DNA from: a virus
DNA length: 50,371 nucleotides
Reading direction: 5' to 3' (one strand)
IMG/VR virus record: IMGVR_UViG_3300009526_000016
Span: 1-50,371 of that record
Part shown: positions 18,979-40,077 of the stretch, piece after piece
Layout: each line of letters opens with the position of its first letter
Position numbering within the stretch: the stretch's first letter is position 1
Notes under the pieces: model-generated
Database searches by the model: none
The model's input: the letters and a program-made list of their open reading frames with translations, nothing else
Told to the model about the DNA's origin: nothing
Translations under genes and position numbers: made by a program

Positions 18979-19006
18979 AAGGGGACTTAATTGTCCCCTT
19001 TTTTTT
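18979..19006. terminator. Bidirectional terminator between the two gene blocks
   Basis: An 8-bp stem pairs AAGGGGAC (18,979-18,986) with GTCCCCTT (18,993-19,000) around a TTAATT loop. It is flanked by eight T on the right and by an A-rich tract on the left (T-rich on the other strand). It sits between convergent stops and overlaps the stop of the leftward gene, so it serves both transcripts. Confidence 0.9.
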
Positions 19007-20976: not shown

Positions 20977-23900
20977 TTATTTTATTAATCCATATCTATT
21001 CAACTCGTACTGTACTGACCAAAATGGTACATTTTTACTTAATTGTTTTAATCCTCTTATTTGTCCATCTCTAGTTCTTTCCCCTCCTATAATACCATTA
21101 CCCATAACTTCCATAAAAGAAGCACTAAAATCATGAGCCATTTGTACGGTGGCAAAAGGCAGCTTAGCAGTACGTGCAATTTCTAAAGGATTATACCCTT
21201 GCATCATATCACTAGCTAAAAATTGTAATTTTTGACCATAAAACTCTTCTTCTTCCCCATCACCTTCAGCAACAGCTAAAGATAATTGCATAATAAATGT
21301 TAACATAGCAGCTTTAGTTAAAAAGTCAATAGCCCCTTCTTTATCTCTTGGGCTCAATTCGCTCCACGCAAATCTATCTCCAGTTTTACCTAAACTAATA
21401 ATTCTTGCAAACATACCTAAAACAACATAAGCTCTACCTCTATGTACCGCGTTAGTCCATTCCATTGCAGGTAACTCTGAAGTAATTTGATTACCTGCAG
21501 CGTCTGTAGTAGTAATGGTTTGTAGATTTTCAGGTCTATTACCATTTTTATCTACTAATCCATTGTAAACCTCTGTATTACCGTCATGCCAATTCTCGTA
21601 CCAACCTAAAGATTGACTGCTTTGTTTACCTTGCCAAGCACTAGCAAGTAAAGAAGGTAAATATTTTTTAAATTGTAAAAACCAAGACCCTAAAGCATGT
21701 GCCTCCATCATTGTTCGCTCATGTCTTCTGTATCCCCCGTGTAGTAATGTAGACACATTATACATTCTTTGGATTTCTTCTGTTGTTAAATCTGTAACAA
21801 CTGTCTCTAATCCTCCTGCGTCTTTTTTAACAAATCTAGCATTATATTTTTTCTTTCCTGTGTTTTTATCTATTTTATATTCTAACCAATTTCCTTTGTT
21901 GTCATAATTATCCCAAATACTACTACCATCTGTATGCTTCATTTTTTTCATTTGAGCTGCTAAAAGTACTGCGTGTCCCCACTCTTCATGTATAGCGTGG
22001 AAAAAGAATAAATTACCATATCTAAATGCAGGGTTCTTTAAGGCTCTAAGATCAGACTTATCTATTGCATAATCATAATTATCTGGTAAATAGTTATATC
22101 TATTCATAAGATTATATAACTTGTTTTTATGCCTAGTACCTGTAATCTGAGATCCAAAATATTTACGGACTTCTCTCATTCCAAATCTTATATCACCCAT
22201 ACTAAAGTCTATAGCGCTTTCCGGCACACCTACTCTCTTGGCTATACTCCCTTTCATACCTGCAGCTAATGTATACATAGTAATAATAGCACCATTAAAA
22301 GTACCTCCACCAACTCTTAGCCATAAAGCTACTCCTGTTCTTAAATCTTTCATTGCCATCATGGCTTGATATAGATTTATCTTATATTTTTTAGGAATTC
22401 CATTCTCATCTACATTAAAAGGATTTTCCACAGTAAGATCTTGCGAAGCCCAATCAGCATCAATCATTTTACGATTAAGTATGTTAAGCATTATTTCTTT
22501 TTCCATAAATGCTTCAAATCTTTTAAAGTTTCTTCCTGCTTTAGTTCCTAATTTAGCTATCTTTCTAAATGAATACCAACCCTTTAATCCTTGAGCAAAC
22601 GCCAATGCAGGGTCCATATTATTCTTTTTAAATAAAGAGTTCATAAATTCTAAATGCATTCTTTCTACATCAAAACTGTGCTCTCCACTACTAATTACTG
22701 AAGAATTACCTAAGAACTGTATAGGTATTAAATTACCAGCAGTTACATAATCTTCTTGATACACTTTTTCGTAGTAAAAAGATAAATTTCTTCTCTTCCA
22801 GTCTCTAAAACTATCTCTAGCTCGTTTACCAGTTTTTGATATAGTAGAATCGTTTTCATAACGTTCTAATATTTCAGCTCCACTAGCCGGTAACCTAGGT
22901 GCAAAATATTCTGTTAACTTCCCTTCTTTAGTAACATCAGTTCTATTTTTTAAATTTAACATAGTACCAACATCCTGTTTATATCCATATTTATCTACAT
23001 AAGCTGTTTTAGTAGTTACTTTACTAAATTCTTCATTTTGCCTTTTATGCATATATAAGATAATATCATGCTGAGCTTGTGTAAGTTTTCCGTCTTTAAA
23101 TTCTTTTTTAGCTTCTGCTACAGTTTTTGCATAGTATCCAGGACTATTCTGAATTCCAGAATCTCTATATACCCAATAAAAACTCCACATATCCCTCATA
23201 TTTAAAAGATTAATTTGTCTAGCTGTAACCATAGCAACTGCACCTTTAACAGATCTACTTGCTACATACTCAGATCTTATGTTTTCTACATATTGTCTAA
23301 AAGCTGCTTGTTCATTAAATCTATCTTTCATAAAAGAGTCGTGGTGATCTCCCCACATCTTAGTATAAGTTTGTATTCTTTTAGAGCCTATATTCCAAAG
23401 CATACCAACCCATTGTTTAAATACTCCTAAATTTTCAGATCCATCTAAATCTCCTTTTGAGCTTTGTTGAGTTTTCATTAACTCATCTGTTAACTCTCTT
23501 AGATCTTTCTCATCTCTAGTGGGATTAGTAGATTCGTTCATACTTAGTCTATTACTAAGCAGCTCTGCTTGCATTTTATAATATTCTATTCTTTCTTTAA
23601 TAGGCATAGCTGCACCTTTAATAAAGATATCTTTAGTTATATTTTCATCTTTAGCTAAATAATTTCTAAAATCTAATAACCCTTTAGTTTTAAGTTTATT
23701 ATAAATATCAGAATTAGTTCTTTTGTAAAATTCTCCTATTATAGGTAAGAAGTCTTCTAAATTTACTTGCTCTGGTTCTTGTTTTAAATTACTTCTATCT
23801 AAATGATGAACAATTATTTTAGAAAATTTAGCTTTAGGAGAATGCTCTTTAATCATTATAGCACGCATAGTAAGCTCTAACTTAGCTCTGTTTAACTTAG

Positions 23901-26900
23901 TATTATAAATATCACTAGTAGCTCCATCTGCAAATGGCATATACTCTGCGTACGTATCAGAAGAGTAAAACCTACTACCAGATTTATAATCTACCATATG
24001 TAAAGTTCCATTAGGTTTTTGTACTAGAACGTCAATTTGAGTTGCTACTCCCATTATAGGACTATGTAGCATTAACTCTGCAGATATATTATCTGAATCT
24101 GTTATACCTAGCATTTTTATGTATATGTCTTTAACTTGCTCTAGCCAATTTACTTGGTATTGGTGTATTTCATCTTGATCTCCTTTAGCTTGCATTAATT
24201 CTTGTTGCTCAGCTCTCAGCTTTGCAATAGTTGCTTCAGTTTCTTTACCCTGATCAACCATTCTTTTTGCTAAATTTATTTGCATAATTTTATGAGCGAC
24301 ACTACCATAAGCTGATGCGGTAGCTGCATTCTTATTAAAATAAGACACTAACTCTGTGTATGTATATTCTACACCATTTAAAGTAACTTTATCTGTTTCT
24401 AAACTCTTTTTATAATTTTCAAAAATACTATTAGCTATAGATTCAGAATTAACTTTATCAGGATCATTACCAAAGTTTTTTTGAATATCATTAGTAAGTC
24501 TTTCATATTTTCCATCTCTTCCTGCATATGTTTTTTGATCTGGAGATAAATTTAACAATTCTTGTGCTGCAGTATCTTTAAGCTCTTTAATAATATCAAC
24601 AGGACTACTCATTTTAGTTTGGTCAGTGCCGGACTCTTCTTCCATTTTCTGATACCTAGTAGTCATATTCTCTGTAGTAGAAATATTTTCTTTTGTAGAC
24701 ATATCAGCCATTATCTTTTGAATACTAATACCAGTACTTGACATAAAATCAGACTCAGACGTCATAATTTTAGATTCTCCATATGCCATATAGTATCCTA
24801 AAATATTTAAAGGAGTAGTTGCATTCAAATCTCCTGGTTTAATAATATAATCTTTATTCATAAATTGTTTCCACACCCTTTTAAGATATTTCATCAATTT
24901 TTCAATAACCTTAAACAAAACACTCCCAGTGTTAGTAATAGCTTTTCCAGCATATTTACCAATAGCTTCTACTATAGCTTCTTCTATTTGATCCTCCTCA
25001 CTTAATTCTGGATATCTTCTTTTTACTCCATTTAAAATATTACCTTCTGATAATATAGCGTTTCTTAAATTAGTGTACAAAGGCTTATTACTTTTTCTTA
25101 TAGAAGCTACCCATGGATGCGCTATCTCATGAAAAGGAGTATCTAATGTAGCATAAGCTAAATTAACAACAGCTATTCCGTCTTGGAACTTTCCTTTAAA
25201 TAATAAATTTTTATCATTTTCAATTTTATATTCAATTCCAAATCTAGCTTGTAGCTTTTTTAGAATGTTTTCCATTATTTGTTTAGGAACTGTTTCTTGA
25301 TCTTGTTCTTGAGCAAATTTATCTATTTTTTGTTGCTTTATATCTACAGTAGGAGTTTCATTAATATCCTCTATAGTTTCTGTAGTAGGCTCTACTAGAT
25401 GCAAAGAAGCAGGCTGTCCTAAAATATAATCATATCTATTTTTACTTTTCTTTGTCGTTTTGTCAAGAAGATCATCTAGTTGTTTATTATATTTTTCTAT
25501 AGTTTTATCAGTTTTAGAAGAATTGATTTTTTCTTCTAACTGTGCTATTTTTTTAACAGTGTCTTTACCCCAATTATCTACAATACCAAGAACGTTATAC
25601 ATAACAGCTCTTTTCCTTGTATGATCATCATAAGTTCTTAGAATCATATTACCTCCATCTTGCACTCCTCTTATTTTCTTATTATTTCTAGGGGTGTATA
25701 TAATTTCTTGTTTAATCTCTCCTTCTTCAGTAAATAAATTTTCTATAGCTCTAGTTAAAACATCTTTTCTAAAATAGACACTATGATCATATGGTAAATC
25801 TCCTACAGTTTTATCTGATGTATATTTAGATGTACTAAACGCTTCTTGACCGTCTCCTACTTTTTGATAATATGCGTGACCACCTTCTTCTAATTCATCC
25901 ATGTATACTCTTATATATACAGCACCATTTTTTTGGTTAGACATTAACAAAGGAGGGTTACTTCTTAAATCTTTAGATGTCTTTATATCATACAAAATTT
26001 GAGATTCTCCTAGAGACTCTACACCTCCAAAATCTACAATAGAACTTTTAGTTGTCTCTGTTCTAGCACTACTATCAATTTTATAATGTGATGGTAGTGT
26101 TTTATAGTTATTTAAAGCAAATTGTATTAAAAAATCAGTTCTAAGATTATTTAGTTGTGTAACTCCCTTGTCTGTATAAGCAAATTTTCTAGCTAGTGTG
26201 TTTATAGCGGTATCAACTTTACTTAAGTATGTTGGATTTAAAACCATAGTAATATTTGATGCTCCGAAAGCTAACCCCTCATTTAAAGTAGCATATTTAA
26301 CAATATCTTCTTTTAAATTTGGACTTAACTTCTCAAATTGCTCATATATACCGTGGATTTCTTCAACATTTAATCCAGCTGCATTAGAATATTTCATATA
26401 TCTTAATCCAGATTTACGCTTAACTATAAGTAAATTACTTAAAAACCCATTAGTATTTTTATCTTCATGATTTTTTATTTGATCAATAAGAGTTTCGTTA
26501 AATGCGTCAATACCACCTATAGTAACTTTTTTACTACCATATGATAAATACTCTGTAGTCTCTTGTTGATCTGTGTTATAATAAGAAGCAGCTAAATATT
26601 TTGTAAACTCGCCTCTTACATATTCTGACACACTATGAGGTGTTTCTCCAAATTCTACACTATACCCATTAATCATTTTGTTACTAAAATCTACTAGTTG
26701 AGGAGCATGTTTTGGAAGCATTGCACCTATAAGATCATGTAATACAGATACAGATTTAATAGCACTTCGTATGTGAGGATTTCTATTTAAAAATTGAGGT
26801 ATAGTAAATTGTATACCCTCCCCTTTATTACTAATATATTCTGTAGTTTCTTCTGTTTCACCTGTAATTTGCTCCCATGCCTCTTTACTAGAAGCAATCT

Positions 26901-29900
26901 CATTAAATGTTCCAGGTAATTTTTTTAGTATGTTTAACTCCCTAGATATAGTATTTAAATTTTTAGCTGGTATAATTAAAGTATTAAATAGTCTTAATAC
27001 TTGGTGTTGGAATATAAGCTCATTTTTAGTTAGATCAGAAAGTTCTTTTATTTTATTATTTTTCTTATCAAAAGATTTATTAAGTTTTGAGCTAGTAATT
27101 TTTACATCTTTATTTGATAAAGCTTCGTACTGAGCTTCTGTCATACCTTTTTCTAATAGCTCATTTTTTAAAGCGGATCTAGCAGATATCATAGCTTGAT
27201 ATTGACCTTTATTACTAGTACCTATTTGTCTTACAATAGGTTGAGACACAATATTAGTTGCTGTCTTTAAAGGAACTCCAAACCCAATCATTAAAGCTAA
27301 CTCTGATCCTGTATTATTGTTTATATTAAGTATGTATAATATTTGTTCTTTTGCATTATCAATAGCTGCATTAATAAACATATCTAATGTTTGCCATATA
27401 GTATAGTCTGACTTAACTATCTTTCCAGAGCTATTTTTAGATATTTCATATCTATGGAATTGACCATAATCTACATCATCTATATTAAAAGAAATGTCAT
27501 TACCATTAGAGTCGACTAGTTTAGGTGTTAAATTTGTAAATCTTTTTCTACCTTTATAATCTTTAGCCATTACCTGTTCTCCTGCACTAAACATATAAGC
27601 CATTGCTTTCATTAAATTAGCAAACTGACCAACAAGCTGTGCACCATCTTTATTACTTTGATGCATATGAGACTCATCTAAAGGTAACATTAAATTTTTA
27701 GTAGGTAGCAGTTCATTTACTTGTACACCTAACTTCTTTGCAAAATCAGAAAATACAGAATTTTCTTGACCATTTATTAAATCTAAACTAATAGGAGTCA
27801 TCATTGACATTCTATTCTTATCAGCTTGAATAACATCTAAATAAATTTCTAATAATCTATTTTTCTTAGCAGCTAATTTAATTTCTTGTATTTTTTTAAG
27901 ATTTCTATTTAGAGCTTTTATTTGATTCTTATCAAGAGTTTGATTTAAAAGATCTGCTGTGATTAAACCTTCAATATGCTCAGCTTGTTCAAAATTTAAT
28001 TCTCTATCTATAGGGATTAAAATATTTGACGGATCTAAAGCATCAACTAATCCTTCAGCATTAGTAGCATATATATATCTACCATTCTTATCTTTATCCA
28101 TCATTATAGCTCTTCTTATAATAAATAATGAATCGACATCAAAATCAGAACCATGTAAAGGAACAACTTCTTTAGGTGTTATTATTACATTAGTTTCAGA
28201 TGAGTCATAAAAACCTACTACTCTTAAAGCTATAGCAGAATGAAGCTCTGTAGATGGTATACGGAACCCTAAGATATTGCCTTGGTCTGTTTTTTGATAT
28301 ACATCAGAACCTATAGGTATTTGCTCTCTATATATAGCAGGCATTATAACTTCTACGTAAGGTTTAGACCCTGTAATATGTTTAAGTTCTCTTTCTTTAG
28401 CGTTTAGCTGTCGCTTCATAGCGCTTAGCGTTACTCCCTCAGCTTCAGCTCTGTTTACTAAATCATCATAAGTTAATATTCCTTCAGTAGTTTGATATAT
28501 ATCTATACCATATGAAGATTGTAATACTAATTTAGAACCAGGTAATCTAAATGATACTGTAGATTTACTAAATTGTGATGATAAAGTAGATACTACTTTA
28601 TTTACAAGTCCTGGAAAATTTAAATCTACTGCATTCTCAGTTACAAAAGTGTTTCCTTTTTGTGTTGTTACTTTAGCATTTAACATTTCAGCTTCTTTCT
28701 GCCCAGACTCCAAAGCCTTCATAGACGCTAATACTCTAGATCTAACTTTAGATCTTACAGATTCTTTATTCTTTACATCTCTGTACGTTTTAACTTGTCC
28801 TGAAGCATTTAGCAATCCAAGTTCTCCTAAAAAATTATGTAAACCCATCTCCATAATTTCAGAAGTTACTTTATAGTATTCTGCAGCTTCTGTTCTATTG
28901 TTACCGTTAGTATTTATAAGGTATGTGAGCTGAGACATATTAGCTACTAGAGCATTCACATCTGCTATTGGATCTAACTGAATTCTAAACCCTTTATTAG
29001 ACAACTCTACAATAGAGTCTGTATGTATAATAGGGTTAAAATCTCTGGTAGATGTTTTTGTAACAACATTATTTCCGTTTACATTTACTATTGTTTTATA
29101 CCCATGTTTAGATAATACTAAAGGTTGGCCGTTTTTAAAACCACTTGCAAAAACAGTTTCGTCTACCTCATTCTTTCTCATTTCTTCTAAAACCTTTTTA
29201 AGCTTAGGTTGTTTAGATATTAACTCATCACTTAAAACTATACTAGAATACTTCATAGTTCTTAGTATGCCGTTATTGTCTACTTTTGCATACACACCCT
29301 TCATTACCTTTCCTAAATTAAGTCCAGGGAATCCTCTCATTATGTCGGCAGCTCTCTCTGGAGTCATCAATCCTTGTGCATCAGCTAAATCAAATGTAAT
29401 GCCATGTATATTTTTAAGATCGTCTTGTAGTTTATTATATTCTCTTTGAGTTAAATAATCAAATGCACTGCCTTTAGGATCTTCCATTACAGCAACTTTA
29501 AACTTTTCCTTCATACCAAAGTTCTGATTGATAGTCCCTGCAGTACCTGGTGCAAACACAATAGACATTCTTTTAATTAGATCATACTCATTTTTAAATG
29601 CCCCTTGATCTCCTACTACTAATTGATTTAAAAAGAAACTGTTAACTGCATAATTCTGAACAAAAGTACTAACTAAAGCACTTAGTGCCATTTCAGATGT
29701 AACCTCTTGTTGTGCGTCCATGTCTTTTCCTGTAACACCTTCAGCCATAGCAAGTCCTATATCTAAACCTAAAGGAGCTAAAACATTTTTATCTGTTAGT
29801 TTCTTAGCAATGCTAATTAAATTTTGAGGAAGTTTTATATTATTCTCTGTTATATAATTTAATGTCTCAAGAGTATGTTCATTTATAGCTTTTAAAATAT

Positions 29901-32900
29901 CTTTTGTTCTTTGAGATGATGATTTACCATTATTAAGTATGTCTTCAAACATAATAGCATGTGAAGCATTATGCTTACCAACTAAAAATCCTTCTTCATT
30001 TCTAACTCTCTGTTCAGAAGATGTGTGTATTTTTTTAGTAGACTTACTTTTAGCGTCATGCTGATTAACAATTGCAGCAACAGCATCTCTAACTTGTTCT
30101 TTACTAAGAACTCTTACAGTAGCACCTACTGGACTAGGTTTATCAGATATAGTATATAACTGTTGATCGTAAGATATAAAGTTAGATCCTGTACTTTTTA
30201 ATCCTGTTAAAAACATATAAGTAAAATTACGCTCTAACCATTCAGGCTTACTCTCTCTTTTATACAATCTTGGAGAAGAGTAATTATTTGCATCTTCTAT
30301 CCCATCTAAATCTTGTATAGATGTAATTTTATTTTTCACATCTGTGTCTCCTACAAAAATATTATACTTATAAAAAGACTCATAACCAGCTGCTTTCTTT
30401 TGTAAATGCTCAGGTTTAACGTTATCTGCAAGAGATATTATAACTTCATCACCAAAAGAACTGTCATGATATTTGTGGACCACATTACCTTCTATGTTTC
30501 TAATACTTTGAGACTTTGCTCTAGAATCTGTAGCATTTAAACTGCTAGATAATAAATCAAATAGAGTACTATGATCATTTATAACATCTTCTAGAGTTTT
30601 TTCTCTAGTTATTTTCTTTTCTACTATATTACCTTTAGCGTCTTCAATTTCTTGTACGTCTTTTATTTTATCCCCTATAGTATTTAAATCAGTTAAAAAG
30701 AATTTTAATGCTATAGCAATTTCTGACCCTTTTGATGCGTTAATGACATGATTGTCAAATGGAAACTTAATAATATTAAAGAAATCTTCTATACCTTCTG
30801 CTGGATTTTTTTGAATTTTCTTTAATAACTTAGTAGTAATTAATTTCTTTTTTAATTGTGGCACAGACTGCTCAATAAAACTTTCTATTTTTTGTTCTAT
30901 TGTAGCTTGATTACCAAATGTTTTTCTAAGAAACCATTTAAATTTAGTAATAACAGTTTGTTGCTCTGCATTATAATCGCTTCTATACTGACCAACTTTT
31001 AATTTTTCTTCTCTTTTATTAGCAGTATTATTATAAATATTTCTAAGAGCTTTACTAGCTATTTCTTTTATATACAACGCATGTAACCCTCCAGCTTCTA
31101 CTTCTATCTTATTATCTTTTAAGGCTTTCATTATACGGCCCCAAAACTCTGAAGAAGATTCCATTGCTGACCCTTGTCTTCTTCTTTTTATAGCTATTAC
31201 ATTCTCATTACTTTGTACCTTAGGGTTATATTCTTTAGAAATATTAATTGTATCGTCTTTAGATAATAAAAATAAATCTTCATCATAAAACTGTATATTA
31301 GTAGGTAAAGATTTAAAGTTATAATCAGTAGTATGAGCCTTATTAATAAGATCTATTACAGCATCTTTCACAGCTAGGCCAGCTAAATTCTTAGCTCCTC
31401 CTAATTTATTAAACTTAGCATCTATATAGGTTACCATTTTTTCTTGAGTCATATCCATATCCATACCATAGAATAATTGTAATAATCTAAAGTATCCATT
31501 TCTAACTCCAACCATTTTAGTTTCGTCTCCTACTTTATAACTTACGCTATTTATAAAATCAAGTGTGTGATCTCTTAAACTGTTTACAGAGTCTTTACCT
31601 TTAGCAGATAAAATGTGATCTCTTAAATCTACATTAGATAGCTCTACTTCTGTATCTTCAAATCTTTCAGAAGATTCTTCATATAAAGTTTTAACTTTTT
31701 TTCTGTATAATTCATTGTGTAATGATCGTAATATACTAGTTTTAGATAAAGCGGAAAAAGCTTTATATAAATCAGATTCCCATCCTTTTAAATCTGCTAC
31801 TGTCTCTCCCTCTTGTAAAAACCCAGCAGCCTCTTCTCTAAATATTTCTACTGTTTCTTTTAAAGCCTCTTCAGGATTAAGCGCAGGGTTAATGTAAAAA
31901 TCCCCATCAATTTCTTGGCCTTCTTTACTATCATTATATAATAGATCATGATAAGCCATTAAAAATCTTTTCTTAGCTACTCTATAAACGCTAACAGATC
32001 CAAAGTCTTTAACAATATCTTGAAAATTTCTAGTAGGAGCTTCTACATTAATCTCGCCTTTAAAGTCTGAGAAATATCCATTATCTATATTTTGAAAGAA
32101 TTTATCAATTTCAGTAACATTCTTATTTACTATACCAAAGAACTTTAATATCTTCTTAATATATTTTCTAAGCGTTGCAGAAATACTAGTATCCTTATCA
32201 AGAATCATAAAGTCTCTAAACAACTTCTCTTCAATCATTTCATCACTATATAAATTAGTGTCAAGAAATTTGGCTTTATCTCTTAGCATTCTTATCTGAT
32301 TTTCAATCGCTTGCATTTCAGCTTCTGTGGTATACTCCTGAAAAGTATCTCCGGACATCTTTTGGATAATACTCTCCTGCTCTGAAATCACCCGTAGCTC
32401 CCGAAGCTCTTTTGTCAATTTACGAAGTCTGCCACTTTCTGCAAAATGCTCTCTAGCAGCTTGAAATAGTTTAACTCTTTCTCCTTCTGTTAAATAATGT
32501 GCAACAACTTTATGTCCTACCTCATGTCTAATCACATTTTCATAAACACCTGAGCCATCATTAACAAGATATATAACATGATTCATAAATCTACCTAAAG
32601 TATTAGGCTCAGCTCCTGTTCTTTTTATTAACTCTAAAGCGCTTAGAATTTCAAATCCAGTTGTAACATTCTTACCATCATTGTAAGTTAATAGTTTTGC
32701 CCTGCCATTTTTAGTAAATAAATCTGGCATTAGCTGACCAAGTATCTCTTTTGCTTTTTTATTAGATACTTTATTACCTTTTAAGTCTTGTACCCCAAAG
32801 TTATCCATAAAATCTCTACTACGACCTCTACCGTTAACGTTCTTTCTTCTTGTTTTATCTTCAGTTTTTTCTTTTGTCTTTCTTTTTGAAGAGTCTTCTA

Positions 32901-35900
32901 ACCTTGGGCTTTGTTCAGTACCTCTCTCTATAGATATAGATGTAGGGTGTACTCTGACTAGTATGTTTTCTAAATTAAGCCCTGCTTCTTTTCTATTAGT
33001 ACTAACTTCATCTTGACCATTAAAAGCTTTTGATGCTTCTCCGTATCTAAAAGTTTTTAAATTTATTGGAATTCTAATTCCTGACATTAAATATCCTTGA
33101 CTATCTTGTTCTACAAACCATTGTCGTAGTGAGTCTAAATTCCATTGAAACTTACCTCCCATAGAAAATAACCCTTTACCCATTCTAACATTTTTACCAT
33201 CTATTTTTTGCATGATGGCTAAGTTTGAATTAGCTTTAGCTAGTAAATGTATAGCGTGCTGCGCTCTTCCAGTTTGTTTTCTTACTTCTCCTTTGTACTC
33301 TACTTGAGTCTCATGTAAGTCATTAGCTTTAGCTCTTAACTGCTCAAGTATTTGTCCTTCCTCACTGTTAGGATCAATCTTTTGCGGCATTGAAAGCCAT
33401 ATTTGCTGCTTAATAGATGTCCAAGACTTCCCTTCGTATCTACTTTTTTTGTCTGAATTACCAGCTTCTGGGTAAAATTGGCTTTTCATAAATTCTCTAA
33501 ACTCATTAGTACCCATTATAAGACCAGTCATATCTTGAATACGTTCAACTGTTTCAACAAACTCTTCAATAGGAGCTAAATACATTTGATAATCTTCTTG
33601 TATTTGGCTAGAAATTTTTCTAGGCCTCATCTGAACAAACTGTTTTTTAGCCTTACCTTGCGTACCTTCTGTTTCAACATTGTCTAGCACTAAATAAGGA
33701 ACTCCAGCTTTAACTTTGTACTGAGCTTGTTTAATATTATCTACATTATTTTTAATATCTGAATCAGTATATACTCTGACTTTAGATTTAAGTAATGCAC
33801 TACTGTTTGCTGGCCTTTGATAATCACTGTAGAAGTCTGAAATGAACTGAGATATCATATTTTCTACTACATTTTTATTTTCAGTTACAAACTCTGATGC
33901 AGGAACCCTTGTATAAAACTTACGATCTTGATCTTCATATCCTGCATACTCATAGTTTAAACGCTGCCTTCCTCTTATATATACATCGTCTAATAATGCT
34001 ATACCATCTATATCTCTAGATGTAGTCCCGTCAGGAGAAGCTAAGATCCCTCTAGCTACTGAATCAAACTTAACAATACTTGCATTTTTATCAGCTAGAA
34101 CTCTTTTTAATTCTGCTTTCTCTGTGTCTTTTAAGAAAGATATTTTATCTATCTCACCTTCTCCTAGCACAGCTACTCTTTGATATAAACCTCTGGTTTG
34201 TTTATAGCTAACCTCAAACCCATTCATGTCTTTAGCTCTTGTAATTAACACAAGGCCTTCTACAATTTTCATTTTACCCTTAGCATCTTTCTTCTGAACT
34301 TTAGCTTTAACTATAAGTACTTTAGCTCCTTTACCATCTTCACTTCTAGCTGCTATATTGGCAATCTCTGTCCCTTCTATATTCTCTCCGTGCCATACAG
34401 GTAAGCCATTACTGTCTTTACTATAGTATCCCTTAACAGATGCGTATTCAGGAAATCTTAATAAATGAAATTCATTATTATCTAAATGTTTTTGATTGTC
34501 ACCTAATAGTAGTTCTTCACCTTCATATAAATCTTCAAAGTCTTGTTGTGTGTGCTCAGACCATTCTTCTACTTCTTCTACAGTATTAGTAAAAGCCTCT
34601 ATGTCTTGTTGATCTTCTTCACTTGCTTCTTCTACCTCATCTGTTAACTCTACCTCTTCTACTTTATCTATTTTAGTTTCAATAGTTTCGTTTATACCTT
34701 CTTCTTCTAAATTAGTATCTTCTACCATGTCCTCCTCCTCTTTAGATAGAGCCCCTGGGTCAGAATAGTTTAATTCTTTACCGTGAGCTTTAACCCAATC
34801 TAGATTACCTTGTACTTCTGTTAAGTACTCTTTACCTCTTTCTATTAACTGCTCACTAGTTCTTCCACTAGCTAGCCCTAAATTAAGATCAGCATGATTT
34901 TTTATATCTAGATTACCTATCATTAAGAATCTTTCTGCTCTAGAAGAAGCAGTATAAATAGCTCTATTATAAGATCTATTATCTTTAAAGTACTTTGGAT
35001 CTTTAGGTAAATCTACATACACTTCAGATATACTCCTTCCTTGAGCTTCTGTTACTTCTAATACTTCAACTCCTTCTATCATTGCTTCTTTTAACAATTC
35101 TTGATAGTGTTCTATGTTTTCAGGTAAAGTTATTATAGCTCTTGTCTTTTTATCTTCTGCTGTAGTTTCTCTAAGACGTCGTATTATATTTTCTTTTAAT
35201 TTATGCTCACTAGTATTTGTACCCCAAACTCCAATTACTTCATCTGTTTTTCTAACTCCGTAAGGGTTAGTAGCATTCATCTTAACATCTATCTTACTAC
35301 CAGCAACGTCGTGTGTCTTACCTCTAAATAGATCTTGAAAGTTTGTTATTGCAGCAACATCTGTTCTATACACTGTTGAGATAGGTGTAACAATTTCTAC
35401 TGTCACCGCATCAATAGGAGCATATTGCCCACTGTAATCAGCTGTAATTTGATTAGGGTCTCCAGTAACTACAACTTTAAGTATATTATCTTTAGATCTT
35501 TCTGAGTTTATTTTAGCAACAGCCTGCCCTAAATTTTCTAGCGTTATGTCATCTATACCTGCAACCTCATCTATCATTAGTAATTTAATATCGTCACTTA
35601 CTCCATTGTTAGTTGCTAGGTCTAAAAACATAGGTATAGTAAAAGGCTTTTCTTTACCTAATGCTGAAGCAAGTGTTTCTGATGAATGGTCATTATGACC
35701 AATAGCTAATACATCTTCTAGTCCTATTCCTGAAGTGTTTAACATCCAAGGTAATATAACTTTAGTTTTTCCTGTACCTGCAGGAGACTTTAGATATACC
35801 CAAGCAGAGTATAAATTGTCTTCACTTATTTTAGGAGTGCTTTTTATAAACTGTACTAAATTTCTTATAGCTATTACTTGTTGCTTTGAAGGGTATGCTC

Positions 35901-38900
35901 CTTGCGGGGCATTTTGAGAAGTAGCAAACTCACTAGCTATTTGAGCATCTATTCTAAAATCAGAATTTATATATTCATAGACTCCCATCTTTCCTTCTAA
36001 ACTTATTTGATCTTGTATTAAACCTACTAACTCATCCTTAGTAAGAGTTTTATCTTCTGGTCTTTCTTCTGCTTTTTGTACATCTCTTAAAAACTTATGT
36101 AAATTTTTATGAACTGTAAACTCTTGGTAAGCTCCTTGATCGTCTAACCCTGTAGCAGAGTCATTGACGTCCATTAAAAGATTAAGTATAAAAGAAAATT
36201 GATTTCTAGGAGCAGCCATGTATTCATCTATGTTAGGCTGTATACTTTTTTCAGTTCGTCCTGTTATTTTTAATACTCTTTTTAAAGCTTCGTTTTTAAT
36301 TATAGCTTTCTTTTGTGCGTCAATATCTTTTTTTAGTGAAGATATATTTGTGTCTATTTTAGATTCAAGTGCCATCTGTATTAGCAATAAAGCTGCAGCA
36401 TGCTTGTCAGAAAGTTTACCAGATTTTATATCTTCCCTCCATTTAATTACATTCTCAGATCCAATTGCTCTTTCTATATCTTCAGCCATTTGAGTCTTAG
36501 CTTCTAAGTTCTCGAAGTCAAAACCTATTACATCCATTAAAGAATTAAAGACATCATTTTCATATATATATTGTTCTCTAGTTCTGTCATTAACTCTGTC
36601 TGTTACAACTGTAAGGTACTCTTCTAGCTTATCTATGTTTGTGTCTATTTGTGTTAGCAGCTCATCAGTAATCCACGGGTTCTGCTCTCTATCTCTTAAA
36701 GTAAAAATATTTTTTAATTTCTTTAAACCTTTAAGAGCTCTTTCTACTATATTCTGATCTGAAAAAGTTTCATTAGCTTCTACATTAGATTGTATATATT
36801 CTAAATTGTCAAATATAAATTGATCTGCAACCATTTTTTTATATTGATCATCTGTAAGTTCTCCAAACTCTGAATCATCCATTAAGAATTGAGAATAGCC
36901 ACCATCGTTATCTCTTCTATTTCTAAACTTTTTAATTAACTCAGAAGTTTTTTGCGCATCATTAGTAGCTTCTTGCTGTCCGTCTATAGCTTCTTGAAGT
37001 TTATTTATTTGAAAACTTTTCTCTGCTTCATTAGCCAGTGTAGCAAGTTCTTTCTCTTGTTCTCCTGTAATACTGCCCTCTTCTTTAAATTTTCTTAATG
37101 TCTTTAATCTTTCTACTTTTTCGGTAGTCATCTTATCAGCTCCTAACATAAATTTTTGGCCCTGAGCCTCTTGTAAAGAAGCTTGCATTTGTTTAGAGTA
37201 ATGATGGTAGTATCGCTGTAATTTACTAACTTCGTCTAAAGTTATATTATCTATCTTAATGTTTCTATCTAACATCTCTTCAAGTATAGTGCCTAAATTA
37301 CCTCTAGGGTTCTCTGTCATTAATTGAGATATAGTAGATGCGTTAAATAAAGCAAGACTTCTTTTTAATTTTTGTTGTTTACGGAGCCTTTTAACTTCAG
37401 AAGTTTCTACAATCATTTCATATTGCTCCATCTCTGCCTCTTGCTTTAAAGCTTTTAATTCAGACTCTCCTTCTGGAGTAAGTTTACCTTCTGTTTTTAA
37501 TCTTTCAAGGCCTGCAATCTCAAACATTATTCCTGACACTAGTTCTGGATTTCCTTCTGAGTCTACTTCATACTTGTTAAGAGCTTCATATCTTTTTCTA
37601 TTTACAGTTTGAATACCGTGAGCTCCCATAGTTAACATATTTTTATCTCCTATAAGGTCTATACTTTCTAATTGTAAGCTTTTTAATTCTTGTTCTGATT
37701 CTTTTATTTTTAAATCAAAAGGAGTTTCACCTAACCCTTTTTCTTGTAGTGTGTTTCTAACTTGGTCTTTTTCTTCCTGAGACATAAAGTCGCTTTCTAG
37801 CCAAGACTCTGATTGCTCTTCTTGGTTTTCTAGCCACGATTGTTTATCATCATTTAAAGTTGTTAAAGATTTTTTTAACCTAGCAACCTGCATAGCATTT
37901 TGAAACAATTCAAATTGTTCCATTTCATTTAAAGGTTTAACGCCTCCTAATGATTTAGCAATGCTCTTCCTGCCACTCATACCTAGTTGGTCTTGCATTT
38001 CTGAAGTATAAATACTTTCTCCAAAACGCTTCTGACCTGCCCACATATCATACTGCTCTTTAGCATCTGATATTAAATCAATAGACTGTTCTGCTTCTTG
38101 CTCAGTCATAAGACCTTCTTTAGCAGATTTATATATAGCTGACAGTAAATGTTTAACAGTACCATTTTTAAAGTGTTTAAACATATCAGCTGCTTTAACT
38201 TTAGTATCTATTTCAGCATCAAATGCTTCTCCATCTTTACCTAATGATGTAACTGCTTGTCTAAATCTATTATAATCCATTATCCCTCTACCTAACCTTG
38301 GACCAGCAACCATCATAGTACCCATATCTCTACCTGATTGCACAGCTTCTTTAAAAGCATGATTATTATATATATCAGGATTAGCTCCTACCATATCATG
38401 CATACTGTGCGGCATCATAGCTTTAGCTACTTCCTTACCATCACTCCAAAAATCTCCAGCTAAATCCATTACTCCATGATTTGAAGAGTATCCACTAAGA
38501 AAATCATTACTCCATTTCCATTGTTGACCTTCTTCCCACCCTTCCATTTGTCTGTTCATGTTAACAAACGTACCGTATCTAGCGGCATTGATTCCCATTC
38601 TACCAGGGTAGGTTGCATTCAATCTAGCATAAGCTCCCTTATTAACAAAGTTCCTTCCAAACGCTGTTCTACTAAATCCTTTAAGAGCAAACCAAGTTAG
38701 AGCAAATTGTGCCATATCGTTACCAACAAGCATTCTATTTTTAATACGCATGTCTCTCATGCCATCCATAGAAGCTACACGTATTTCTCTTTTCTCTTCA
38801 TCATTTAAAAGCCTGCCTAGTTTATCTTGTTCTCTAGCTATTTCAGCATCTACTTTTCTCCAGTAAGATTCTCCAAGCTCCATACTTCCTTCAGCCTCTC

Positions 38901-40077
38901 TACTGTACGCTAGCCCTGATCCTATAGCTCCCAATTGAGCTGTCTTTGTAAGCAGTCTTCCTGTTACGGACTTAGGTAGTCCTAGTTTTTTTGCACCAAT
39001 TCCAACAGCTAAAGCTCCTAACCCTGCTATTATATGCCCTTCAAATGTAGACATAGTTCCCGCTAAATCTTCTCCAGATTGATATCTAAAATAGTTGTCT
39101 CCGCCCAAATCAGTTTCTTTACCTAGTCCTAAAAGACCAGATATTTTACCAACAATTGGAATAGAAGACATAAATGTTTCCTCATTAAGTCTAGATTTTG
39201 AAGCTCGATTTACCCAATTAGGATTAACTCCAGCGTAAGTACCTGTCCAATCAGGTCTTTCCTGATCAATCATACTTTTCTTATCATTAACTTGTTTACC
39301 TAGCTTAAGTACTTGTTTTTGAAACTCTTCATAAGTTTGAGGCTTATCTGTAAATATACTATTAACCCAATTATCTGCTGTGTTTAAAAATGATAACGCA
39401 CTTCCTTGATCCTTGTATCCCGCTTTAACATCTTCTTGATTCTTTTTAGCCATCTCATCAACAAACTTACCCATAACGTCTTTGTTCAACCATTGAGATA
39501 TATCTTTACTACCAAATAGTTGAGCATTCATATACTCATTAAAAGTATCATCAAACCCTTGAGATAGTATGTCGTTAAAAGCTCCAGCTTTTATTTGTTC
39601 TTTTAATCCGGTTGCTTCAAGCACACTAAGTCTGCCACTCTCAGCCATATCATCAACATCTGCAGTATACTTATCCATTAAATCTAGATAATTCTGATAG
39701 TTAGCTGTCTGATCTTGCAGCTTCATGATTCTGAATTCTTTTACACGGTTCCTATGGTCATTAAGCATACTAGGCCAATCACCTTGAAAATTTGTTTGAT
39801 ATCTTTCAGGACTATCCTCATATGATACAATAGTAGGATCAGTAATACCGTAACTTACTAAAGGGTCTTTAAACCCACTAGTTAAATCTACTCCAGGAAC
39901 ACCTGCGAAAGGGCTATTACCACCTGAAGAGGATATATTATTTATTTGATTAAATAATATCTGATTATTTTCTGAGGCGCCAGTTAAATCTATAGCATCG
40001 TTAGAAGGTACAGAATTTGATTGGAGATTATTTTGATTTAATATATCCCCATTTTGAAACTTTTTAGTCTTGCTCAT
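20977..40077 (-). CDS. Giant multidomain virion protein: helicase, two zincins, RNA polymerase, nuclease
   Basis: One uninterrupted frame of 6,366 codons. Domains in order: N-terminal KKFQNG motif; weakly hydrophobic Gly/Ala segments near 340-365; long coiled-coil-rich region, about 690-1050; SF1 helicase, 1395-1722 (Walker A SPAGTGKTK 1431-1439, Walker B D1503-E1504, TGDPNQ near 1541, a QGRSISEVYV...ASSRAERF end); acidic linker 1778-1856; Lys/Arg-rich linker about 2383-2426; zincin 1, HEVGH 2518-2522; RNA polymerase, about 3440-4150; zincin 2, HEIAH 4983-4987; RecB/Cas4-like nuclease about 5255-5370 (GSVAHKIM, then IDVLV, DYKSG with D5363 and K5365); helical C-terminal region. In the polymerase, AQGLMTPERAADIM precedes the first barrel with RTMKYSS (K3609) and FASGFKNG (K3648); the second barrel has DFDVD (D3978, D3980, D3982). 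This matches the virion polymerases of crAss-like phages, which enter the cell with the DNA. The zincins may process this protein. Confidence 0.88.
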   Translation of the reverse strand: MSKTKKFQNGDILNQNNLQSNSVPSNDAIDLTGASENNQILFNQINNISSSGGNSPFAGVPGVDLTSGFKDPLVSYGITDPTIVSYEDSPERYQTNFQGDWPSMLNDHRNRVKEFRIMKLQDQTANYQNYLDLMDKYTADVDDMAESGRLSVLEATGLKEQIKAGAFNDILSQGFDDTFNEYMNAQLFGSKDISQWLNKDVMGKFVDEMAKKNQEDVKAGYKDQGSALSFLNTADNWVNSIFTDKPQTYEEFQKQVLKLGKQVNDKKSMIDQERPDWTGTYAGVNPNWVNRASKSRLNEETFMSSIPIVGKISGLLGLGKETDLGGDNYFRYQSGEDLAGTMSTFEGHIIAGLGALAVGIGAKKLGLPKSVTGRLLTKTAQLGAIGSGLAYSREAEGSMELGESYWRKVDAEIAREQDKLGRLLNDEEKREIRVASMDGMRDMRIKNRMLVGNDMAQFALTWFALKGFSRTAFGRNFVNKGAYARLNATYPGRMGINAARYGTFVNMNRQMEGWEEGQQWKWSNDFLSGYSSNHGVMDLAGDFWSDGKEVAKAMMPHSMHDMVGANPDIYNNHAFKEAVQSGRDMGTMMVAGPRLGRGIMDYNRFRQAVTSLGKDGEAFDAEIDTKVKAADMFKHFKNGTVKHLLSAIYKSAKEGLMTEQEAEQSIDLISDAKEQYDMWAGQKRFGESIYTSEMQDQLGMSGRKSIAKSLGGVKPLNEMEQFELFQNAMQVARLKKSLTTLNDDKQSWLENQEEQSESWLESDFMSQEEKDQVRNTLQEKGLGETPFDLKIKESEQELKSLQLESIDLIGDKNMLTMGAHGIQTVNRKRYEALNKYEVDSEGNPELVSGIMFEIAGLERLKTEGKLTPEGESELKALKQEAEMEQYEMIVETSEVKRLRKQQKLKRSLALFNASTISQLMTENPRGNLGTILEEMLDRNIKIDNITLDEVSKLQRYYHHYSKQMQASLQEAQGQKFMLGADKMTTEKVERLKTLRKFKEEGSITGEQEKELATLANEAEKSFQINKLQEAIDGQQEATNDAQKTSELIKKFRNRRDNDGGYSQFLMDDSEFGELTDDQYKKMVADQFIFDNLEYIQSNVEANETFSDQNIVERALKGLKKLKNIFTLRDREQNPWITDELLTQIDTNIDKLEEYLTVVTDRVNDRTREQYIYENDVFNSLMDVIGFDFENLEAKTQMAEDIERAIGSENVIKWREDIKSGKLSDKHAAALLLIQMALESKIDTNISSLKKDIDAQKKAIIKNEALKRVLKITGRTEKSIQPNIDEYMAAPRNQFSFILNLLMDVNDSATGLDDQGAYQEFTVHKNLHKFLRDVQKAEERPEDKTLTKDELVGLIQDQISLEGKMGVYEYINSDFRIDAQIASEFATSQNAPQGAYPSKQQVIAIRNLVQFIKSTPKISEDNLYSAWVYLKSPAGTGKTKVILPWMLNTSGIGLEDVLAIGHNDHSSETLASALGKEKPFTIPMFLDLATNNGVSDDIKLLMIDEVAGIDDITLENLGQAVAKINSERSKDNILKVVVTGDPNQITADYSGQYAPIDAVTVEIVTPISTVYRTDVAAITNFQDLFRGKTHDVAGSKIDVKMNATNPYGVRKTDEVIGVWGTNTSEHKLKENIIRRLRETTAEDKKTRAIITLPENIEHYQELLKEAMIEGVEVLEVTEAQGRSISEVYVDLPKDPKYFKDNRSYNRAIYTASSRAERFLMIGNLDIKNHADLNLGLASGRTSEQLIERGKEYLTEVQGNLDWVKAHGKELNYSDPGALSKEEEDMVEDTNLEEEGINETIETKIDKVEEVELTDEVEEASEEDQQDIEAFTNTVEEVEEWSEHTQQDFEDLYEGEELLLGDNQKHLDNNEFHLLRFPEYASVKGYYSKDSNGLPVWHGENIEGTEIANIAARSEDGKGAKVLIVKAKVQKKDAKGKMKIVEGLVLITRAKDMNGFEVSYKQTRGLYQRVAVLGEGEIDKISFLKDTEKAELKRVLADKNASIVKFDSVARGILASPDGTTSRDIDGIALLDDVYIRGRQRLNYEYAGYEDQDRKFYTRVPASEFVTENKNVVENMISQFISDFYSDYQRPANSSALLKSKVRVYTDSDIKNNVDNIKQAQYKVKAGVPYLVLDNVETEGTQGKAKKQFVQMRPRKISSQIQEDYQMYLAPIEEFVETVERIQDMTGLIMGTNEFREFMKSQFYPEAGNSDKKSRYEGKSWTSIKQQIWLSMPQKIDPNSEEGQILEQLRAKANDLHETQVEYKGEVRKQTGRAQHAIHLLAKANSNLAIMQKIDGKNVRMGKGLFSMGGKFQWNLDSLRQWFVEQDSQGYLMSGIRIPINLKTFRYGEASKAFNGQDEVSTNRKEAGLNLENILVRVHPTSISIERGTEQSPRLEDSSKRKTKEKTEDKTRRKNVNGRGRSRDFMDNFGVQDLKGNKVSNKKAKEILGQLMPDLFTKNGRAKLLTYNDGKNVTTGFEILSALELIKRTGAEPNTLGRFMNHVIYLVNDGSGVYENVIRHEVGHKVVAHYLTEGERVKLFQAAREHFAESGRLRKLTKELRELRVISEQESIIQKMSGDTFQEYTTEAEMQAIENQIRMLRDKAKFLDTNLYSDEMIEEKLFRDFMILDKDTSISATLRKYIKKILKFFGIVNKNVTEIDKFFQNIDNGYFSDFKGEINVEAPTRNFQDIVKDFGSVSVYRVAKKRFLMAYHDLLYNDSKEGQEIDGDFYINPALNPEEALKETVEIFREEAAGFLQEGETVADLKGWESDLYKAFSALSKTSILRSLHNELYRKKVKTLYEESSERFEDTEVELSNVDLRDHILSAKGKDSVNSLRDHTLDFINSVSYKVGDETKMVGVRNGYFRLLQLFYGMDMDMTQEKMVTYIDAKFNKLGGAKNLAGLAVKDAVIDLINKAHTTDYNFKSLPTNIQFYDEDLFLLSKDDTINISKEYNPKVQSNENVIAIKRRRQGSAMESSSEFWGRIMKALKDNKIEVEAGGLHALYIKEIASKALRNIYNNTANKREEKLKVGQYRSDYNAEQQTVITKFKWFLRKTFGNQATIEQKIESFIEQSVPQLKKKLITTKLLKKIQKNPAEGIEDFFNIIKFPFDNHVINASKGSEIAIALKFFLTDLNTIGDKIKDVQEIEDAKGNIVEKKITREKTLEDVINDHSTLFDLLSSSLNATDSRAKSQSIRNIEGNVVHKYHDSSFGDEVIISLADNVKPEHLQKKAAGYESFYKYNIFVGDTDVKNKITSIQDLDGIEDANNYSSPRLYKRESKPEWLERNFTYMFLTGLKSTGSNFISYDQQLYTISDKPSPVGATVRVLSKEQVRDAVAAIVNQHDAKSKSTKKIHTSSEQRVRNEEGFLVGKHNASHAIMFEDILNNGKSSSQRTKDILKAINEHTLETLNYITENNIKLPQNLISIAKKLTDKNVLAPLGLDIGLAMAEGVTGKDMDAQQEVTSEMALSALVSTFVQNYAVNSFFLNQLVVGDQGAFKNEYDLIKRMSIVFAPGTAGTINQNFGMKEKFKVAVMEDPKGSAFDYLTQREYNKLQDDLKNIHGITFDLADAQGLMTPERAADIMRGFPGLNLGKVMKGVYAKVDNNGILRTMKYSSIVLSDELISKQPKLKKVLEEMRKNEVDETVFASGFKNGQPLVLSKHGYKTIVNVNGNNVVTKTSTRDFNPIIHTDSIVELSNKGFRIQLDPIADVNALVANMSQLTYLINTNGNNRTEAAEYYKVTSEIMEMGLHNFLGELGLLNASGQVKTYRDVKNKESVRSKVRSRVLASMKALESGQKEAEMLNAKVTTQKGNTFVTENAVDLNFPGLVNKVVSTLSSQFSKSTVSFRLPGSKLVLQSSYGIDIYQTTEGILTYDDLVNRAEAEGVTLSAMKRQLNAKERELKHITGSKPYVEVIMPAIYREQIPIGSDVYQKTDQGNILGFRIPSTELHSAIALRVVGFYDSSETNVIITPKEVVPLHGSDFDVDSLFIIRRAIMMDKDKNGRYIYATNAEGLVDALDPSNILIPIDRELNFEQAEHIEGLITADLLNQTLDKNQIKALNRNLKKIQEIKLAAKKNRLLEIYLDVIQADKNRMSMMTPISLDLINGQENSVFSDFAKKLGVQVNELLPTKNLMLPLDESHMHQSNKDGAQLVGQFANLMKAMAYMFSAGEQVMAKDYKGRKRFTNLTPKLVDSNGNDISFNIDDVDYGQFHRYEISKNSSGKIVKSDYTIWQTLDMFINAAIDNAKEQILYILNINNNTGSELALMIGFGVPLKTATNIVSQPIVRQIGTSNKGQYQAMISARSALKNELLEKGMTEAQYEALSNKDVKITSSKLNKSFDKKNNKIKELSDLTKNELIFQHQVLRLFNTLIIPAKNLNTISRELNILKKLPGTFNEIASSKEAWEQITGETEETTEYISNKGEGIQFTIPQFLNRNPHIRSAIKSVSVLHDLIGAMLPKHAPQLVDFSNKMINGYSVEFGETPHSVSEYVRGEFTKYLAASYYNTDQQETTEYLSYGSKKVTIGGIDAFNETLIDQIKNHEDKNTNGFLSNLLIVKRKSGLRYMKYSNAAGLNVEEIHGIYEQFEKLSPNLKEDIVKYATLNEGLAFGASNITMVLNPTYLSKVDTAINTLARKFAYTDKGVTQLNNLRTDFLIQFALNNYKTLPSHYKIDSSARTETTKSSIVDFGGVESLGESQILYDIKTSKDLRSNPPLLMSNQKNGAVYIRVYMDELEEGGHAYYQKVGDGQEAFSTSKYTSDKTVGDLPYDHSVYFRKDVLTRAIENLFTEEGEIKQEIIYTPRNNKKIRGVQDGGNMILRTYDDHTRKRAVMYNVLGIVDNWGKDTVKKIAQLEEKINSSKTDKTIEKYNKQLDDLLDKTTKKSKNRYDYILGQPASLHLVEPTTETIEDINETPTVDIKQQKIDKFAQEQDQETVPKQIMENILKKLQARFGIEYKIENDKNLLFKGKFQDGIAVVNLAYATLDTPFHEIAHPWVASIRKSNKPLYTNLRNAILSEGNILNGVKRRYPELSEEDQIEEAIVEAIGKYAGKAITNTGSVLFKVIEKLMKYLKRVWKQFMNKDYIIKPGDLNATTPLNILGYYMAYGESKIMTSESDFMSSTGISIQKIMADMSTKENISTTENMTTRYQKMEEESGTDQTKMSSPVDIIKELKDTAAQELLNLSPDQKTYAGRDGKYERLTNDIQKNFGNDPDKVNSESIANSIFENYKKSLETDKVTLNGVEYTYTELVSYFNKNAATASAYGSVAHKIMQINLAKRMVDQGKETEATIAKLRAEQQELMQAKGDQDEIHQYQVNWLEQVKDIYIKMLGITDSDNISAELMLHSPIMGVATQIDVLVQKPNGTLHMVDYKSGSRFYSSDTYAEYMPFADGATSDIYNTKLNRAKLELTMRAIMIKEHSPKAKFSKIIVHHLDRSNLKQEPEQVNLEDFLPIIGEFYKRTNSDIYNKLKTKGLLDFRNYLAKDENITKDIFIKGAAMPIKERIEYYKMQAELLSNRLSMNESTNPTRDEKDLRELTDELMKTQQSSKGDLDGSENLGVFKQWVGMLWNIGSKRIQTYTKMWGDHHDSFMKDRFNEQAAFRQYVENIRSEYVASRSVKGAVAMVTARQINLLNMRDMWSFYWVYRDSGIQNSPGYYAKTVAEAKKEFKDGKLTQAQHDIILYMHKRQNEEFSKVTTKTAYVDKYGYKQDVGTMLNLKNRTDVTKEGKLTEYFAPRLPASGAEILERYENDSTISKTGKRARDSFRDWKRRNLSFYYEKVYQEDYVTAGNLIPIQFLGNSSVISSGEHSFDVERMHLEFMNSLFKKNNMDPALAFAQGLKGWYSFRKIAKLGTKAGRNFKRFEAFMEKEIMLNILNRKMIDADWASQDLTVENPFNVDENGIPKKYKINLYQAMMAMKDLRTGVALWLRVGGGTFNGAIITMYTLAAGMKGSIAKRVGVPESAIDFSMGDIRFGMREVRKYFGSQITGTRHKNKLYNLMNRYNYLPDNYDYAIDKSDLRALKNPAFRYGNLFFFHAIHEEWGHAVLLAAQMKKMKHTDGSSIWDNYDNKGNWLEYKIDKNTGKKKYNARFVKKDAGGLETVVTDLTTEEIQRMYNVSTLLHGGYRRHERTMMEAHALGSWFLQFKKYLPSLLASAWQGKQSSQSLGWYENWHDGNTEVYNGLVDKNGNRPENLQTITTTDAAGNQITSELPAMEWTNAVHRGRAYVVLGMFARIISLGKTGDRFAWSELSPRDKEGAIDFLTKAAMLTFIMQLSLAVAEGDGEEEEFYGQKLQFLASDMMQGYNPLEIARTAKLPFATVQMAHDFSASFMEVMGNGIIGGERTRDGQIRGLKQLSKNVPFWSVQYELNRYGLIK

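Follow-up and report, generated by a model that had tools for sequence, protein, structure and literature searches.

The DNA analysed here, which we call the window, is a linear metagenomic contig of 50,371 bases from IMG/VR. Its plus strand carries early genes (DNA polymerase, helicases, primase, a Sak4-like annealing protein, RIIA/B-like proteins and an exonuclease), and its minus strand carries late genes that terminate in a crassvirus-type muzzle (tail tip) protein at 47724..50369, truncated by the contig end (phrog_15100, 2.7e-32; PF25729 crAss_MUZ_C, E 9e-4, under its cut-off). Judged by its sequence, the muzzle protein places the contig among crassvirus-like phages; it adjoins the cargo genes, and these include a giant block that contains an RNA polymerase (RNAP) with a DxDxD motif. 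No genes for TerL, portal, MCP or gene75 were detected along the 50 kb.

All features described below lie on the minus strand. A fused cargo/virion RNA polymerase ORF of 6,366 aa, with 0 cysteines, occupies 20977..40077 and is colinear with three crassvirus cargo proteins. An earlier reading made without database searches (the sequence-only reading) had described it as a single 6,366-codon frame over more than a third of the window, and the frame is indeed open under table 11, with one terminal stop only, and takes up 19,101 of the 50,371 bases (37.9%). A PHROGs search with the giant ORF gave no match. Synteny puts two upstream neighbours in cargo positions: a 707-aa protein (40086..42209) in that of cargo protein 2 (gp46-like), with 0 cysteines and no family match, and a 1,055-aa protein (42226..45393) in that of cargo protein 1 (gp45-like), with two cysteines 12 residues apart (799, 811). 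Such internal doublets, about 9–20 residues apart, recur in or near the cargo-1 position in crAss001 gp45 (390, 398), phi14:2 gp69 (369, 378) and a 661-aa protein of cr273_1 (543, 563), and perhaps form an internal disulfide. Four nucleotides downstream of the giant gene, a 655-aa ORF (19005..20972) has 17 cysteines and a weak Lcl_C-like match; to judge from this composition it is not in the cargo chain, and it probably encodes a surface or fibre protein.

Modules of the giant ORF

The sequence-only reading had placed an SF1 helicase, two HExxH motifs, an RNA polymerase and a RecB/Cas4-like nuclease in this frame, and all of them are recovered here. Unit 1 (aa 1 to ~2407; 32857..40077), with a boundary taken from split relatives by alignment, is the equivalent of phi14:2 gp67 and crAss001 gp47. 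It contains an SF1 (Pif1/RecD/Dda-like) helicase core at ~aa 1396–1745 (34843..35892), which is matched by Pfam AAA_30 slightly under the cut-off (1.5e-5, aa 1426–1576) and by Pif1/RecD/Dda-like structures in a PDB profile search. Across 18 sequences, Walker A/B and motifs III, IV and VI are all present in this region, with no variation in the Walker A residues, DE (1503–1504), D/Q of GDPNQ, R of YR or N/R of motif VI. Joint 1, a low-complexity linker at ~aa 2380–2470 (32668..32940), is the place where split relatives have a gene break with a cysteine pair nearby. Zincin-like domain 1 (aa 2400–2720; 31918..32880) carries HEVGH at 2518–2522, an HExxH that is invariant in a 15-row alignment. Its AF2 model has strands followed by the active-site helix, at moderate pLDDT, and a structure search of the PDB with this domain was uninformative, giving no fold match.

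The RNA polymerase unit (~aa 2720–4790; 25708..31920) is the equivalent of phi14:2 gp66 and crAss001 gp50. Residues 3461–4120 alone match residues 866–1539 of the crystal structure PDB 6VR4 (phi14:2 gp66) over 660 residues at E 1.1e-12, tblastn with the window RNAP finds matches in 76 phage records, and the GSDFDVD block (3976–3982) aligns with every crassvirus RNAP tried. This block includes the catalytic DFDVD (aa 3978–3982; 28132..28146), which by alignment is the DxDxD motif of the beta'-like barrel, and the unit has the two barrels in one chain with catalytic DFDxD that characterize a gp66-like virion RNAP.

The joint 2 linker (~aa 4800–4960; 25198..25680), where split relatives again have a gene break with a cysteine pair, is followed by zincin-like domain 2 (~aa 4880–5250; 24330..25440), with HEIAH at 4983–4987 and E5033 as candidate third ligand, invariant in 15 sequences. 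Relatives conserve His/Glu/His of both motifs together with a candidate third Glu, and structure search recognized the zincin fold in neither HExxH domain; we call both putative zincins. The RecB/Cas4-like PD-(D/E)XK nuclease (~aa 5250–5480; 23638..24330) is matched by Pfam PDDEXK_1 over the cut-off (1.4e-5, aa 5251–5372). Among 15 sequences, D5349, K5365 and G5258 never vary, and D5363 and H5262 hardly do. Zincin 2 and the nuclease were modelled together with AF2 (mean pLDDT 73), and the model is similar to nucleases of the Cas4, MGME1 and lambda-exonuclease types (best E 2.7e-3) and to crAss-phage exonuclease-like proteins. The region shows both the catalytic D...DxK and the fold of this superfamily. 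The profile of zincin 2 and nuclease also weakly matches the virion protein gp10 (PDB 23sg; residues 374–489, around HELIH, E 2.7e-4), which might serve as a template for the structure of zincin 2. The C-terminal region (aa 5500–6366; 20980..23580) is conserved in 17 sequences and has a weak colinear match to crAss001-type gp49 at aa ~1000–1172 (iE 0.015–0.28); a PDB profile search with it was uninformative. Searches of phages by tblastn with the N-terminal 3,000 aa or the C-terminal 1,366 aa gave no matches.

A crassvirus cargo set in one polypeptide

In alignments, the giant ORF is colinear with phi14:2 gp67-gp66-gp65 and crAss001 gp47-gp50-gp49, and by this homology it encodes, as one polypeptide, the three members of the crassvirus RNA-polymerase cargo set, namely the helicase protein, the virion RNA polymerase and the nuclease protein. 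The sequence-only reading expected relatives to spread these modules over several virion genes, as phi14:2 and crAss001 do with three genes each. The phi14:2 proteins are annotated as virion proteins (MS) and those of crAss001 are cargo detected in virions by MS (PMC10172136); by analogy with these relatives, the protein of the window would also be located in the virion. The same reading had proposed a complete package that would accompany the DNA into the cell, start transcription and handle DNA ends. Its entry with the DNA and its part in starting transcription are well supported by the colinearity with both phages, and it may also handle DNA ends; uniqueness of the fusion is not supported.

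Phi14:2 (Crassvirales, Steigviridae) shares with the window an identical module order and a homologous RNAP core, and its gp66 is an active virion RNAP (6VR4). It differs in having three genes with terminal cysteines (gp67 1797/1797; gp66 3 and 2179/2180; gp65 3), whereas the window has one gene and no cysteine, and it is without HExxH 1, which is present in the window. CrAss001 has three matching units, but its gp50 and gp49 lie on the opposite strand to gp47, its zincin 2 motif is missing, and its terminal cysteines (gp47 C2339/2341 and gp50 C5; gp50 C2404/2412 and gp49 C5) have no counterpart in the window. Existing annotations of CrAssphage ZA, cr127_1, Fpv1 and cr273_1 already include partial fusions of this chain. 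CrAssphage ZA (Carjivirus; 1,962 + 4,091 aa) and Fipvunavirus Fpv1 (gp33/gp34; 4,401 + 1,596 aa) each keep one break, with cysteine on both sides, and the partial fusion of cr273_1 amounts to 5,794 aa when TAG is read as recoded. RNAP genes of up to ~6,000 aa in crAss-like phages are covered in a review (PMC10136315), and Yutin et al. 2021 (PMC7886860) has large transcription proteins made up of several domains, which in some of them include PDDEXK. Giant crAss RNAP genes (~6,000 aa) are thus already published, and the unexpected result of this analysis is the terminal-cysteine rule described below.

The N4 virion RNA polymerase (Schitoviridae gp50, ~3,500 aa) is, like the product of the window, a giant injected RNAP made as one cysteine-free chain. 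It is a single-subunit T7-like polymerase, unrelated to that of the window, and we know of no split relatives or terminal cysteines for it. The absence of cysteine from N4-type polymerases is published and has been put down to their route through the tail and the oxidising periplasm (PMC3715699, PMC3915230), and the N4 enzyme carries an HExxH domain (PMC12633501). By our own count, N4 gp51 and gp52 are cysteine-free.

Recurrent fusion and fission

A single-protein scan of IMG/VR contigs with the RNAP region gave no matches, and an RNAP-core alignment was used as the query instead, which retrieved 80 IMG/VR relatives. Complete fully fused ORFs number 13, the window included, and span 5,385–7,427 aa. 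The fusion is confirmed as real but not unique, given that 12 other complete ORFs are fully fused, one of them 7,427 aa long. Relatives also encode the chain in two to four pieces, with breaks at joint 1 (before zincin 1), at joint 2 (before zincin 2) or just after a zincin. By parsimony, the fully fused state changes at least 8–9 times on the tree, joint 1 at least 10 times and joint 2 at least 12 times. Among the nearest relatives of the window are the close sisters L019, which is split, and L020, which is fused.

Cysteines at the gene breaks

The giant protein of the window is devoid of cysteine along its 6,366 residues, compared with 1.8% in its own early genes. In split relatives a lone cysteine lies on either side of nearly every break, within the last 1–12 residues of the upstream protein and at residues 2–8 of the downstream protein. 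Nearly all cysteines of these relatives sit at gene breaks, and the outer module ends are without them. Among middle polymerase proteins (n = 64, mean 2,508 aa), 49 contain two cysteines and no others, each in a terminal position.

In the discovery set, which consists of the loci of the first alignment (A1, from the RNAP-core search), the RNAP ORF ends in cysteine in 45 of 46 loci split at joint 2 and in 0 of 26 fused there (p = 1e-18), and the next ORF has an N-terminal cysteine in 41 of 42; for background ORFs, terminal cysteines occur at 11% and 8%. The validation set consists of 67 further nonredundant loci outside the first set, obtained from a phi14:2-led alignment scan, and includes phi14:2 itself, which had already been seen here to obey the rule. 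Here the N-terminal cysteine is found in 53/53 and the C-terminal cysteine in 57/58 split cases, and over both sets the RNAP ORF has its C-terminal cysteine in 102/104. In four validation loci, length alone would suggest fusion at joint 2, yet the ORF has a C-terminal cysteine; where visible, the next gene starts with cysteine, so these breaks lie further downstream. The N-terminal cysteine and the C-terminal cysteine of the neighbour co-occur (63/4/0/28, p = 4e-20). Phylogenetically independent pairs at joint 2 all point in the same direction (10/10, p = 0.002). At joint 1 the test is weak (3.6 the same way and 0 opposite, of 8 pairs), in part because breaks further upstream, such as those of L063, L066 and L090, are wrongly assigned when length is the criterion.

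Extra breaks carry extra cysteine pairs, on both sides, in L048/G028 and L090, which have four pieces each. The tags are kept in crAss001 though its genes lie on opposite strands, and in csAssE at a distance of ~11 kb (a 2,208-aa protein ending KEC, a 752-aa protein MGVKC...LECR, and MTSTC at ~38 kb of the locus), so the rule acts on the protein. The position of the cysteine (−1 to −12; 2 to 8), its codon (both are used) and the stop–start gaps all vary, and with codon and position varying the pattern is not a nucleotide signal.

There are exceptions. Terminal cysteines are missing from cr273_1 gp35, where the nearest is at −50, and from the upstream protein of L144; those of L089 and L199 are at −11 and −12. 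The breaks in L043, L095 and L211 lie away from the joints, without a full cysteine pair, and look like frameshifts in their sequences, with L095 only 0.008 changes per column from the fused L097. In L075 and L094 the upstream neighbour on that strand is unrelated, and the next listed ORF in L153 is probably an unrelated gene. Two starts appear to be called too early, in L009 ZA_4091 (the Carjivirus 4,091-aa protein; residue 22) and in L180 12725, where the true N-termini are probably MSCGNIK... and MVCRRK..., respectively. The rule can also be used as an annotation tool, in which breaks without a pair flag frameshift-like gaps such as the three above and mis-called starts such as these two. 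Neither the absence of cysteine nor the cysteine-marked breaks in relatives had been remarked on in the sequence-only reading.

Discussion

These results bear on the open question of how, and in which order, phages force megadalton protein cargo along a tail too narrow to admit it in folded form. Crassvirus cargo must partly unfold to pass tail constrictions under 50 A, and the ejection order has been attributed, as probable, to packing and mutual interactions (PMC10172136). The authors of that study expect partial unfolding in the tail, and crAss001 virions contain inter-protein disulfides other than these. The analysis shows which domains the chain holds, that it is colinear with known cargo, that it has repeatedly been fused and split, and that terminal cysteines mark its breaks; in our judgement, the cargo set quite probably forms one chain for ordered injection, translated as such in the window and disulfide-coupled in split relatives. 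With cysteine-free injected polymerases and tail passage in mind, the best reading of cysteines retained precisely where two ends face each other is that they act as couplings.

By homology, the cargo would be stored within the capsid and would enter the cell before the DNA, and the polymerase would transcribe the early genes after injection, as has been shown for phi14:2 gp66. Normally, the cargo would need to move as a single chain of ~5,400–7,400 residues, covalently linked head to tail. In the phage of the window this chain would be made by translation, with peptide bonds and no cysteine; in split relatives, a disulfide in the virion would join the C-terminus of piece n to the N-terminus of piece n+1, the coupled pieces would be pulled in order through the narrow tail, and reduction in the cytoplasm would free them. 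We lean towards such a protein train, in which separate cargo giants are coupled C- to N-terminus by single disulfides in a fixed order and uncoupled in the cytoplasm, and for which the window and 12 others use peptide bonds. That the disulfides form, their direction and their role in ordered ejection are what we infer from the sequences. In the open literature we found no mention of a disulfide between cargo proteins and no earlier report of the terminal-cysteine rule. The rule makes cargo ordering a simple prediction for existing cultured phages.

Terminal cysteines could serve a use other than coupling neighbours, such as anchoring to another virion protein, formation of homodimers or marking of the ends for packaging. 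We consider this unlikely, even though the N-terminal cysteine lies within a recognizable segment, of the MxCPNxxSxxYKxL or DENGEP type, which might direct docking or sorting. The cysteines are found at inner ends on both sides and neither at outer ends nor at the ends or joints of fused chains, which fits pairing across the joint better, and extra breaks are tagged on both sides (L048, L090).

A self-processing polyprotein, in which cleavage by the two zincins at the joints would release the helicase, polymerase and nuclease proteins from the chain, has still poorer prospects. The mapped breaks in relatives do fall within a few hundred residues of either zincin, with two exceptions, and one crAss annotation names a cargo protein ‘fused to zincin protease’. 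However, independent pairs that differ in fusion state mostly keep the zincin unchanged (6.7 of 8 at joint 1 and 8.0 of 10 at joint 2), zincins are retained in split proteins, the fully fused L064 and L083 are without HExxH near both joints, and joint 2 is fused in Carjivirus and cr127_1, which have no zincin 2. The presence of the protease does not track the fused state, and internal processing of the chain by zincins is not supported.

Frequent state changes on the tree and many stop–start gaps of only a few bases are what would be seen if fusion and fission were neutral, without functional meaning, and the cysteine pattern a by-product of translation signals, but the variation in cysteine position, codons and gaps does not fit a nucleotide signal and the rule holds with genes on opposite strands; we regard this explanation as very improbable. 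An assembly or sequencing artefact joining genes, conceivable for a linear metagenomic fragment and named in the sequence-only reading as hidden internal stops, is practically eliminated by equally long, colinear fused frames in at least 12 other contigs, at 16–36% identity in the zincin 2–nuclease region.

Coupling by disulfides is less certain in the gut families (Carjivirus and the L057–L096 type), given their 8–23 cysteines and life without oxygen. Internal cysteines in such numbers occur in L009 (ZA), L014 (cr273_1), L057, L062, L069, L070, L075, L077 and L087, a set that combines named gut phages, from some families, with several metagenomic relatives, and marine and freshwater isolates have almost none. 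A relaxed constraint in anoxic habitats is a possible explanation.

Two types of N-terminal segment adjoin the cysteine, MxCPNxxSxxYKxL mostly in third genes and DENGEP/FGDW mostly in RNAP genes (for example, the L012 4133-aa protein, L028, L139 and L160). The DENGEP type occurs in a single third gene (L050), and a profile built from it matches the N-termini of 16 RNAP genes (E below 1e-3); the two types may be one adaptor family. We rejected the idea that the N-terminal CPN segment is a domain lost on fusion, as the partner cysteine at the C-terminus showed the cysteine to be the constant part. A crassvirus-like muzzle and a cargo chain with a cysteine pair (1552 C1552 and 2748 C4) are also present in the cyanobacterial phage record L005/L008 (Leptolyngbya phage Lbo-JY46).
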